Below, one piece after another: positions 25,834 to 56,802 of a stretch of 64,000 nt of DNA; the first letter of the stretch is position 1, and every line of letters begins with the position of its first letter. The position numbers were made by a program, and so were the translations under genes. The notes beneath the pieces were generated by a model. The model made no database searches. It was not told the origin of the DNA and saw only the letters and a program-made list of their open reading frames with translations. Origin of the DNA: Tropicibacter sp. Alg240-R139 (lineage in GTDB: Bacteria; Pseudomonadota; Alphaproteobacteria; Rhodobacterales; Rhodobacteraceae); contig NZ_UNRA01000001.1 of NCBI RefSeq assembly GCF_900537075.1, positions 682,001 to 746,000 of the forward strand. The letters run 5' to 3'.

Positions 25834-26190
25834 TTCAGCGGACACTCGCCACCGGCAATGGAACGGCAGCTCCGTCCGCACCCCGGTCATTGCCCTGATG
25901 AAAGTGCTGCGCGATGAACGAAGGTCCGGTCTGGTGAAGCTGCGCTGCAGCACCGGTCACCTTGGCGAGCGGCAGCTCTGGGCCGAGAGTTGACAAAGCA
26001 AATCCAGAGAGAGTGGTGGCCCGCCATATTTTTGTATTCTTGTAGCGCTGGCTTTTCGTTTAGTTCGGCGCACCCGGTGCGCTGGACGAGTTTAAAAAAT
26101 AGTGAGCAAAGGTGGTTTGAGGGGTGGATAGAAAACAAGCAATCAATGCTAAGCAATTGACTTTATATGATTTCATCATTAAAAGTGGTG
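25834..26190. other. gene-free stretch before the first island junction
   Basis: No credible gene. It carries remnant-like sequence and the hairpin GCGCA-CCCGG-TGCGC at 26068-26082, the reverse complement of the one at 19304. Confidence 0.4.
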
Positions 26191-26231
26191 CCCGGGGGCG
26201 GAATCGAACCACCGACACGAGGATTTTCAAT
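26191..26231 (-). repeat. att repeat A (left end of island 1)
   Basis: 41 bp identical to the tRNA-Phe 3' half, from the anticodon loop through the T-arm toward the acceptor stem. Together with GGTG just before it (26187-26190) it reproduces the complete 3' end of the tRNA including CCA. Not a functional tRNA, because the 5' half is absent. Confidence 0.9.
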
Positions 26232-35783: not shown

Positions 35784-36164
35784 TCACTCTGAGTTGCATA
35801 CTGGCAGCCGTCCATGCACGCGAACGTATTCCCAGATCAGCCGCCGCTCGGCATAGGCGATGTAGGGGCGCAAGATTTCCGGCTTTGTGTCGATACCTTC
35901 CGGCAGGTGAACCGACACGAACAGATCGGATGCGTCGCCGTTGAACACACCGTGGAAGGTAACACCACCAGCATGTCCTTTCAGTCCGGTCATAGCTGAC
36001 CTATTGAACGTGCGGATACGGTTGCGGATACCTTTCGCACCCCAAGTTCGCCCAATGTAGACAGTGTTGTCAGGCTTGCCGCGGGCAATGACGTAAACAC
36101 CTGCGCGATCTGGCAGGGTTTTGCGCTCATCCCATGCGATAGGATTGGACAGTGAAAGTTCCAA
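35784..36164 (-). CDS. GIY-YIG-like protein of the island core (island 1)
   Basis: 126 residues from a TTG start, chosen because the island 2 homologue has ATG at the aligned position. AGVYVIARGK, then TVYIGRTWGAKGIRNRIRTF is a GIY-YIG nuclease-like motif (GVYVI for GIY, VYIGRT for YIG) with a following arginine. The C-terminal EILRPYIAYAERRLIWEYV holds a conserved glutamate as in the family. A small nuclease acting on element or phage DNA is likely. It starts directly against the structured-RNA region on the opposite side from the gene at 36478. Confidence 0.75.
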   Translation of the reverse strand: MELSLSNPIAWDERKTLPDRAGVYVIARGKPDNTVYIGRTWGAKGIRNRIRTFNRSAMTGLKGHAGGVTFHGVFNGDASDLFVSVHLPEGIDTKPEILRPYIAYAERRLIWEYVRVHGRLPVCNSE

Positions 36165-36177
36165 CAGACCCCGATCC

Positions 36178-36365
36178 GCGAGCGCCCTCGCAATTGACTG
36201 GTGATCGGGGTGTTAGAAAACCGCACGTACACGGTCCCTGCGCCTTTAGCCGGGGCCTGTTGTATAACACAGGCACCCCGACCATAGGGTCAAAGGTGTT
36301 CAGTCGATTTCTCGACCTAGTACGTGCGGGGTTTCTAAGCCCCAACATGGCCGCGTCTGCCATGT
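36178..36365 (+). ncRNA. structured RNA region, C4/CI-like antisense immunity candidate (island 1)
   Basis: Conserved with 52287-52478. Features in order: hairpin GCGAG-CGCC-CTCGC (36178-36191); a 5' specificity arm (36207-36230) with TTAGAAA and GCACGTAC; a core hairpin CCTGT-N8-ACAGG (36256-36273); hairpin GTCGA-TTTC-TCGAC (36303-36316); the complementary 3' arm (36320-36343) with GTACGTGC and TTTCTAA; hairpin ACATGGC-N7-GCCATGT (36345-36365). Several stems differ in sequence from island 2 yet still pair. A cis-encoded antisense segment upstream of its own target resembles C4/CI RNAs. The strand is inferred from the downstream gene at 36478. Confidence 0.6.
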
Positions 36366-36477: not shown

Positions 36478-36684
36478 ATGTCCGACATCATCACGCTTAA
36501 AGCCCTTTGCGAAGAACTCAAGATCGACCCACGCGAAGCTCGCGAACGTCTGCGCGCCGCCGCCAGTGACGCCAAGGCGAACCCCGAACTGGCGAAAGCC
36601 CGCAAGCCGCGTTCGCCTTGGCAATGGGTGAAGGGGTCTAAAGCTCTGCAAGACGCTCAGAAGGTGCTCAGGTCTAACCCATAG
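36478..36684 (+). CDS. small conserved island protein behind the RNA region (island 1)
   Basis: 68 residues; TAGGAGA precedes the ATG. The start (MSDIITLKALCEELKIDPREARERLRAA) looks like a helix-turn-helix, and PRSPWQWVKGSKAL follows a short basic linker. The island 2 homologue is nearly identical (52591). Similar small proteins occur elsewhere in alphaproteobacteria, without a known function to my knowledge. The ~110-base leader is conserved too, so its translation may be controlled by the RNA. By analogy with P1/P4 it could be the regulated anti-repressor-like product; this is inference. Confidence 0.7.
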   Translation: MSDIITLKALCEELKIDPREARERLRAAASDAKANPELAKARKPRSPWQWVKGSKALQDAQKVLRSNP

Positions 36685-41400: not shown

Positions 41401-41441
41401 CCCGGGGGCGGAATCGAACCACCGACACGAGGATTTTCAAT
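41401..41441 (-). repeat. att repeat B (junction of islands 1 and 2)
   Basis: 41 bp identical to repeats A and C. The flanking bases before it read GGTT instead of GGTG, so this copy has one change in the acceptor-stem part of the half-tRNA. It is the shared right end of island 1 and left end of island 2. Confidence 0.9.
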
Positions 41442-51893: not shown

Positions 51894-52274
51894 TCATTCC
51901 GAGTTGCATAGGGGCAATCGCCCATGGTCCCTCACGAAATCCCATATCAGCTTGCGTTCGGCGTATGAGATGTAGGGATGTAAGATTTCTGGATTTGGAT
52001 CGATGTCGTCGGCCAAATGCGTTCGAATGATCAAACCCTCAGTATCGCCGCACAACTTGCTATGGAATGTCAAACCGCCTGCATGGCCTTTCTTGCCAGT
52101 GGTGGCCGACCGATGAAATGTGCGAATGCGATTTTTGATGCCTTTTCGACCCCACGTCCTACCGATGTAAATGAGGTTGGCGATTTCACCCCTTGAGATC
52201 AGGTAGATGCCTGCACGCTCTGGCAGTGATGTACGATCTTCCCAAGGGATGGGTTCGGTGATGAGTAAATCCAT
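51894..52274 (-). CDS. GIY-YIG-like protein of the island core (island 2)
   Basis: 126 residues from the ATG at 52274. The frame continues upstream through the RNA region, but that part is structured non-coding sequence. Motif AGIYLISRGE, then LIYIGRTWGRKGIKNRIRTF matches GIY-YIG; the conserved C-terminal glutamate is in YAERKLIWDF. It is the homologue of 35784-36164. The short G-rich leader between the hairpin and the ATG is the only candidate ribosome site. Confidence 0.75.
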   Translation of the reverse strand: MDLLITEPIPWEDRTSLPERAGIYLISRGEIANLIYIGRTWGRKGIKNRIRTFHRSATTGKKGHAGGLTFHSKLCGDTEGLIIRTHLADDIDPNPEILHPYISYAERKLIWDFVRDHGRLPLCNSE

Positions 52275-52286
52275 TGCGCCCCGATC

Positions 52287-52478
52287 TGCGAGCGCCCTCG
52301 CAATGCTGACTGGTGATCGGGGTGTTAGAAAACCGCGCGAAGACGGTCCCTGCGCCTTTAGCCGGAACCTGTTGTATAACACAGGCACCCCGACCATAGG
52401 TCATGGGTGTTGCTGGTCGCCCAGCAACGTTTCTTCGCGAGGGGTTTCTAAGACCCAACGTGACCGCGTCTGCCACGT
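52287..52478 (+). ncRNA. structured RNA region, C4/CI-like antisense immunity candidate (island 2)
   Basis: Second copy of the region at 36178-36365. Hairpin TGCGAG-CGCC-CTCGCA (52287-52302); 5' arm 52319-52344 with TTAGAAA and CGCGAAGA; core hairpin CCTGT-N8-ACAGG; hairpin GTTGCTGG-TCGC-CCAGCAAC (52409-52428); 3' arm with TCTTCGCG (52432-52439) and TTTCTAA (52445-52451); hairpin ACGTG...CACGT (52458-52478). The specificity arms differ from island 1 but stay complementary to each other. Confidence 0.6.
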
Positions 52479-52590: not shown

Positions 52591-52791
52591 ATGCCCGACA
52601 TCATCACGCTTAAAGCCCTTTGCGAAGAACTCAAGATCGACCCGCGCGAGGCCCGCGAACGCCTGCGCGCCGCTGTCAGTGACGCCAAGGCGAACCCCGA
52701 ACTGGCAAAGGCGCGGAAACCACGTGCGCCGTGGCAATGGGTGAAGGGTTCCAAAAGCTTAGCGGAAGCGAGGAAAGCACTGGCCAGCTAG
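52591..52791 (+). CDS. small conserved island protein behind the RNA region (island 2)
   Basis: 66 residues; TTAGGAGA precedes the ATG. Nearly identical to the island 1 protein at 36478 (DIITLKALCEELKIDPREA is shared exactly). The leader is also conserved. This is the last core gene before right-end cargo. Function unknown; HTH-like and possibly regulated by the upstream RNA. Confidence 0.7.
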   Translation: MPDIITLKALCEELKIDPREARERLRAAVSDAKANPELAKARKPRAPWQWVKGSKSLAEARKALAS

Positions 52792-56727: not shown

Positions 56728-56802
56728 TGGTGCCCGGGGGCGGAATCGAACCACCGACACGAGGATTTTCAATCCACTGCTCTACCCCTGAGCTACCCGG
56801 GC
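56728..56802 (-). tRNA. tRNA-Phe (anticodon GAA), integration target of both islands
   Basis: 75 bases including an encoded CCA. It folds with a 7-bp acceptor stem (GCCCGGG/CCCGGGC), a D-arm (GCTC/GAGC), an anticodon loop TTGAAAA with anticodon GAA, and a T-arm (GGTGG-TTCGATT-CCGCC). The anticodon stem GTGGA/TCCTC has one T-T mismatch. The 3' half is repeated at 41401 and 26191, and island integration has left the complete gene intact on the right side. Confidence 0.93.
56733..56773 (-). repeat. att repeat C (within tRNA-Phe)
   Basis: The 41-bp segment inside the intact tRNA gene that is identical to repeats A and B. Identity between copies ends at the anticodon loop (TTTTCAAT on the plus strand), which bounds the strand-exchange region. 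Confidence 0.9.

Follow-up and report, generated by a model that had tools for sequence, protein, structure and literature searches.

The window, that is, the whole stretch of 64,000 nucleotides of Tropicibacter sp. Alg240-R139 DNA that was analysed, contains two tandem satellite-like islands at one tRNA-Phe gene (26186-56802). The tRNA-Phe(gaa) gene (56728..56802, minus strand) is the probable integration target. Partial copies of it lie at 26186..26231, where exact 30-nt matches to the gene mark the outer attachment-site-like repeat of island 1, and between the islands at 41401..41441 (sequence match). Each island comprises a phage-type integrase, primase/helicase genes, a structured RNA with a GIY-YIG-like open reading frame (ORF), a small plus-strand ORF, and cargo. 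Defence-like cargo is present in both, namely methyltransferases and NOV_C, and UvrD-like helicase, AAA/HNH, and TIR. The loci L250, L251, L252, and L007 share the island backbone, as does, in part, the shorter locus L039. The small plus-strand ORFs, which diverge from the RNA (36478-36684 and 52591-52791), have relatives in all five related island loci searched; their PHROG match is weak and of unknown function there.

The GIY-YIG-like ORF of island 1 (35784..36164, minus strand) starts with TTG, and that of island 2 (51894..52274, minus strand) has a likely ATG at 52274. The name is based on motifs that we take to be those of GIY-YIG proteins. For the protein itself, Pfam, PHROGs, PDB, and NCBIfam offered nothing convincing, and neither a scan of viral contigs nor a plasmid search turned up relatives. 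The protein was found in 4 of 295 genomes of the family, its own included. The RNA and this gene stand together in both window islands and in L007, L039, L246, and L247. These four loci each reach 73.2 bits with R1, a covariance model whose training set contains both window cores and L007. On the other hand, a 5'-truncated GIY-YIG-like ORF is still present in L252, whose sub-locus L248 yielded no RNA match. A preliminary description had placed the RNA ahead of a small gene; a small gene does follow, but it is the minus-strand GIY-YIG-like ORF and not the plus-strand ORF at 36478-36684.

All the elements named in that description, including the flanking TTAGAAA/TTTCTAA and two further hairpins, were located in both regions. 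The long-range arms are GCACGTAC (36223-36230) with GTACGTGC (36320-36327) in island 1, and CGCGAAGA (52336-52343) with TCTTCGCG (52432-52439) in island 2. The two regions are 85% identical over ~480 bp, and the eight-base arms differ between them, each still matched with its own partner, just as had been described. The host genome contains these two copies only, both by DNA search and by the Rfam model of sRNA-Xcc1 (RF02221).

It is from the minus strand that each of the two regions encodes a structured leader RNA. RF02221 matches each of them over its full length (model positions 1-87 of 87) on the minus strand only. One pair of the closing stem P1 is G-U in 28 of 32 aligned representatives and would be an A-C mismatch if read from the plus strand. 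Moreover, a Shine-Dalgarno (SD)-like stretch, GATCGGGG, and then the GIY-YIG-like ORF follow in the same sense. The minus-strand assignment is drawn from these three points. The plus-strand reading gave fold z-scores of -4.25 and -3.98, and was dropped on the G-U evidence and the RF02221 orientation. Upstream of H1, the first hairpin, sigma70-like box pairs scoring at least 8/12 were found in 52 of 114 distinct upstream regions as against 12.9% of shuffles, no score being given for the window copies; in L007, the best such box pair lies away from the expected place.

In the 5' to 3' direction of the minus strand, the RNA of island 1 begins with H1 (36345..36365), a hairpin ACATGGC/GCCATGT with the loop AGACGCG. 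It is followed by H2 (36328..36343), a GGGG..CCCC hairpin that holds arm A1 (TTAGAAA) in its loop, is recognised by sequence and alignment, and is comparable to the a1 hairpin of the phage family c4-a1b1. Then come the target arm A2 (36320..36327, minus-strand GCACGTAC), assigned by sequence and arm matching, and H3 (36303..36316, GTCGA/TCGAC), which shows two-sided pair changes at alignment columns 71-90. The C4-like core, a putative processed small RNA, spans 36203..36283 (RF02221 40.8 bits, E 1.3e-5; R1 70.3 bits, with this core in the R1 training set). From alignment and folds, its closing stem P1 is formed by GGTCGGGGTG (36283-36274) with CACCCCGATC (36212-36203), after which ACCA extends to 36199. 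The antisense arms B occupy 36213..36230, as judged from sequence, arm matching, and predicted folds: B2 (GTACGTGC, 36230-36223) lies in a hairpin loop, and B1 (TTTTCTAA, 36220-36213) adjoins the 3' strand of P1. The hairpin H5 (36178..36191, GCGAG-GGCG-CTCGC) and the SD-like GATCGGGG (36169..36176), which is complementary to the 3' strand of P1, complete the leader.

Island 2 repeats this layout on the minus strand, and its parts were assigned from the sequence, with a loose script for H1 and arm matching for A2. They are H1 (52458..52478, ACGTG/CACGT), H2 with A1 in its loop (52441..52457), A2 (52432..52439, minus-strand CGCGAAGA), H3 (52409..52428, GTTGCTGG/CCAGCAAC), and the core with P1 and arm B (52315..52395, arm B TCTTCGCG at 52343-52336). 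That core scores 42 bits with RF02221 (E 6.5e-6) and 70.2 bits with R1, in the training of which it was included. H5 (52288-52301) and the SD-like GATCGGGG (52279-52286) lie together at 52279..52301.

RNAs of the kind found in the window are widespread on plasmids and phage-like islands and have drawn little notice. A total of 136 copies were parsed: 2 from the window, 15 from plasmids, 1 from a viral contig, and 118 from genome contigs. This set does not include L016, L117, and L122, which the parsing patterns missed, and one copy containing Ns. The copies, hereafter alpha-type, are mainly from Alphaproteobacteria, and conjugative plasmids are among their carriers. They were picked by pattern or BLAST, so conservation within the pattern (ATGGTCGGGG..CTAAAGG) is selected and not found. 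The pattern scan of genome contigs gave at least 120 loci. BLAST on plasmids gave 172 records with an Agrobacterium copy as the query and 341 with a copy from a Ti plasmid, 224 of the latter over at least 80% of the Ti-type RNA. R1 matches 37 of 385 genomes of the window's class at E <= 1e-4, its own genome included. A loose script found H1 in 133 of the 136 copies and an H5-type hairpin with GG[GA]CG in all 136. The H1 loop ACGC and the H5 loop GGGCG may kiss; of the five copies with ACGU in H1, two (L006 and L104) have GGACG in H5, unlike the others, and L018, an ACGC copy, was also read with GGACG in H5, which was taken for a misparse.

Of 398 genomes in the phylum, 58 have an RF02221 match at E <= 0.001, and 39 are over the cut-off. 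A set of 40 RF02221-type loci was drawn from these on the basis of high scores and the presence of several copies; 39 of the 40 come from outside the window's class. One genome (G284, L173-L181) has nine RF02221 matches with nine distinct arm strings. In another locus (L182), a CRISPR array with RF01317 repeats lies at 41-910, just upstream of the RF02221 copy. Rfam at gathering scores reports nothing in the two window regions, nor at the RNA in 10 plasmid loci scanned.

In the 136 copies, the upstream arm A is complementary to arm B within the ~85-nt core, and the lettering of the arms varies by locus; 46 distinct B strings were counted. Among 108 distinct copies, the mean complementarity is 29.0 for a locus's own arms, compared with 19.3 for the arms of other loci and 18.2 for shuffles. 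With one copy for each of 44 distinct alpha-type arms B, both window copies included, cognate A-B matching has z = 19.8 over 5,000 re-pairings, and 37 of the 44 are above the 95th percentile of non-cognate pairs; the mismatched copies L035 and L041, being duplicates of an arm B, do not figure in this test. With 81 distinct A/B combinations, L035 included, z is 24.1. The RF02221-type loci also show cognate matching (z = 11.2, with 16 of 40 above the 95th percentile of non-cognate pairs). RNAalifold on 32 representatives gave 29 pairs, 16 of them with two-sided changes. The selection on pairing that had been suggested from the two window copies is thus borne out by the A-B matching and the two-sided changes, and the window contains a real, conserved RNA, probably a switch.

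The arms are exchanged as matched pairs. In 440 pairs of copies, which are not independent of each other, the flanks are at least 93% alike and the arms are different; 279 of these keep their own pairing, with cross pairing weaker both ways. Up to 40 of the remaining 161 involve L035 or L041, and others have partly similar arms. In L035 and L041, the own arms are mismatched, and arm A of one specificity is joined to the core of another, the mosaic being alike in the two genomes. In the genome of L041, R1 matches just two copies, neither with a core for the arm A of L041. Predicted folds of the leader give arm B a partner in the A region with P > 0.5 for all 46 distinct arms (L035 and L041 being dropped as arm-B duplicates); once the upstream part is replaced by that of another locus, 14 of the 46 still pair in this way. 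Of the nine pairs of copies that share a genome, eight have different arms B, as against 8.6 of 9 expected by random drawing, and these nine pairs give no significant support for an avoidance of equal arms within one genome.

The preliminary description had likened the region to C4 of phages P1/P7 and CI of P4, with an antisense segment followed by its own target. Target and antisense arms do lie together on one putative transcript. In contrast, the strand and the order had to be revised, since target A is 5' and antisense B is 3', and the suggested search with the Rfam C4 model found no match in either region even at E <= 10. The nearest Rfam family is instead sRNA-Xcc1, which matches weakly, both regions lying under its gathering cut-off of 53. 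sRNA-Xcc1 is a mapped 88-nt RNA according to the accessible part of its description (PMC2996969). Its model covers the whole core on the minus strand at E of about 1e-5, and RF02221-type loci have the same arm layout as the window; on the other side, they have a second, SD-proximal target and lack the GGU..ACCA ends.

The phage C4 families are C4 (RF01695) and c4-a1b1 (RF03163) of clan CL00128, and Rfam gives no clan for sRNA-Xcc1. On phage P1, Rfam finds C4 at 68.8 bits and c4-a1b1 at 51 bits, and the annotated order is a1, b1, C4, a2, b2, icd. The resemblance to the window lies in the layout. The 5' hairpin, the a1-in-loop hairpin, and b1 of P1 correspond to H1, H2 with A1, and A2. Both cores have a closing stem, one arm (b' in C4) in a hairpin loop, the other (a') beside the 3' strand of the stem, and a GGU start, and both lie upstream of a mobile-element gene. 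This closing-stem arrangement was found in the isolated core fold and not in the predicted full leader, where P1 does not form. Folded in isolation, the core is predicted to have its first eight bases in pairs (mean 0.99) and arm B free in part (mean 0.59). An upstream target complementary to the antisense arms, like a1/b1 to a'/b', is present, as the 44-arm test with both window copies indicates. In contrast to C4, the window RNA has H3, H4, and H5 in addition, no downstream a2/b2, and, instead of icd/ant, a GIY-YIG-like gene (by motif) and not an antirepressor gene. No sequence model matches in either direction: R1 did not match C4 in phage P1, and 13 RF02221-type loci scanned gave no C4 match at E <= 0.01. 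Since no sequence model links the families, the common descent of C4, sRNA-Xcc1, and the window RNA is unproven.

The second target at the ribosome-binding site separates the two types of loci. It is absent as a trend from alpha-type loci (z = -0.3, 2 of 44), and the window copies score 17.5 and 22.5, under the threshold of 24.5. RF02221-type loci show it with z = 6.5 (11 of 40), and in 22 of 40 a stretch near the SD and start is exactly complementary to arm B over 6 nt or more, the control being 14.6%. The ends of the core differ too. ACCA directly follows the closing stem in 114 of the 136 alpha-type copies; this was not selected for, and many copies are near-identical. The GGU start of alpha-type cores is part of the selection pattern. 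RF02221-type cores start with GGU/GGA in 4 of 40 and have CCA within the last 9 nt in 9 of 40, and the C4 of phage P1 ends in ACCU. By analogy, the tRNA-like GGU..ACCA ends hint at a C4-style release by RNase P: C4 is cut by this enzyme, and C4-like RNAs of Acinetobacter look processed at GGW likewise, according to the available portion of PMC5320573. These Group 1 C4-homologous sRNAs of Acinetobacter baumannii resemble the present RNAs in their many copies per genome, variable arms, and probable RNase P processing. In contrast, they are discussed as anti-phage or, more likely, host-transcript regulators, and the same portion of that source holds no mention of matched upstream arms.

CI of P4 acts by premature termination in the P4 replication operon. 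It shares with the window RNA a satellite-like setting with integrase and primase and, as proposed here, a leader-made antisense RNA with an upstream target. In contrast, the window RNA faces a GIY-YIG-like gene that is convergent with the primase gene, and the likeness is drawn from setting and layout.

Taken together, the RNA is probably, though with considerable room for doubt, a C4/CI-type antisense module ahead of the GIY-YIG-like gene, whose arms set an element-specific self-recognition. Confidence in this reading, as in the superfamily discussed below, is slightly lowered by the RF02221-type cores, which lack the tRNA-like ends. Each island would make a minus-strand leader RNA, at the start of which H1 and H2 would present the target arms A1/A2. 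The downstream ~85-nt core would fold like phage C4, a hairpin loop holding B2 and the 3' strand of the closing stem adjoining B1, and would probably be released by RNase P as a small antisense RNA. The core of a resident element would pair in trans with arms A of newly made leaders of the same specificity and would reduce downstream-gene expression, in the manner of C4 in P1 and of CI in P4. A newcomer of the same type would thus be silenced in a resident cell, and a newcomer with other arms would be left alone. Since A and B have to match and the arms differ, each island would have its own self-recognition, and two tandem islands with different arms would fit such silencing of same-type newcomers. 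In the window, control would be exerted within the leader itself, either through premature termination or through the blocking or release of GATCGGGG, and not through a second target of the arms at the SD. In the six satellite copies examined, the 3' strand of P1 is complementary to GATCGGGG before the start codon; the predicted occupancy of this SD-hairpin lies anywhere between 0.00, the value for window island 2, and 0.99, that for island 1, and its use as a control is only a possibility.

The same predicted folds bear on the foremost alternative, a cis-acting leader switch in which the pairing of A with B would be confined to a single transcript, the A-B helix, competing with P1 (or H4), would set SD access or termination, and no free small RNA would act in trans. 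For the six satellite copies, prediction of the full leader gives P1 a probability of 0.00 and H4 one of 0.00 to 0.04, with the arms paired in cis; a purely intramolecular role is therefore conceivable. The dominance of cis A-B pairing in all 46 predicted leaders, the complementarity of the P1 3' strand to GATCGGGG, and the alpha-type loci without a second target speak for it. Nevertheless, this switch is rather unlikely, because 46 distinct B strings in 136 copies, exchanged as matched pairs, resemble a specificity code rather than a fixed fold. The tRNA-like core ends, the discrete nature of the relative sRNA-Xcc1, and the second target in RF02221-type loci also argue against it, as do the variation of the SD-hairpin occupancy among copies over nearly its full range and the near absence of H4.

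The genes behind the RNA were taken as the first plausible ORF by script, which gave some clearly wrong frames and none in 3 loci, and 10 of 43 downstream-gene clusters were checked with one representative each. The largest alpha-type cluster has 78 members and matches PF10074; its member in L009 is annotated DUF2285 and has ORFs of DUF6499 and DUF2285 as neighbours. In domain content and gene surroundings, this cluster resembles the antiactivator QseM as presented in the accessible part of PMC10359603. Other alpha-type downstream genes encode TraM (PF09228; 4 loci), HTH and MarR-like regulators, and the GIY-YIG-like protein. Behind RF02221-type RNAs, the representatives are SymE (5 loci), Phage_pRha (2 loci), KilA-N (1), and P22_AR_N (1). 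In the octopine Ti plasmid NC_002377, traM follows the RNA immediately and in the same orientation. A literature search, with sources available in part, found no report of an antisense RNA ahead of traM or qseM. A ProQ/FinO-family gene stands immediately before the RNA and traM on NC_002377 (L142, 2566-2898) and is reminiscent of FinOP, a parallel that was set aside as no relative of this gene was found in the other loci then compared.

This range of genes also bears on an RNA antitoxin for the GIY-YIG-like protein, by which the islands would gain addiction or defence and not immunity. The five SymE genes behind RF02221-type RNAs and the defence-like cargo of both islands are in its favour, and sRNA-Xcc1 beside SymE has been so read in the available part of PMC12444791. 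It is improbable all the same, given that the other downstream representatives are regulators and not toxins (TraM, DUF2285, HTH, antirepressors), and it would be compatible with the antisense module preferred here. A trans-acting regulator of chromosomal genes, the published interpretation of sRNA-Xcc1 in Xanthomonas and Xylella in the accessible parts of PMC12189769 and PMC12444791, seems very unlikely for an RNA whose arm B has a strong partner within its own leader.

Beyond the window, sRNA-Xcc1, C4, and the alphaproteobacterial RNAs may form one superfamily of portable antisense modules with the A/B arms as a swappable self-recognition code, a reading that falls somewhat short of probable. 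Its alphaproteobacterial branch would have dropped the SD-proximal target and would use the upstream target alone. The code would be in use across phages, satellites, integrons, ICEs, and conjugative plasmids including Ti plasmids, and the module would control the gene that decides the next move of the element, be it an antirepressor, a transfer antiactivator (TraM, QseM-like), or a toxin. If this is true, the 'virulence sRNA' sRNA-Xcc1 would be a mobile-element switch, many plasmids and islands would share a common readable code of self and non-self, and a testable account of transfer timing would follow. It would also suggest how two near-identical islands coexist side by side. New here are the breadth of the set, the exchange of matched arms, the absence of a downstream target from the alphaproteobacterial branch, and a proposed connection of sRNA-Xcc1 and C4 with genes for conjugation control. 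A literature search, again with partly available sources, found no statement linking C4 and sRNA-Xcc1. In the accessible part of PMC12189769, C4, isrK, and sRNA-Xcc1 are tabled within 400 bp on one strand of Xylella fastidiosa De Donno (1,323,982-1,324,381), as if these Rfam entries marked the parts of one such locus.
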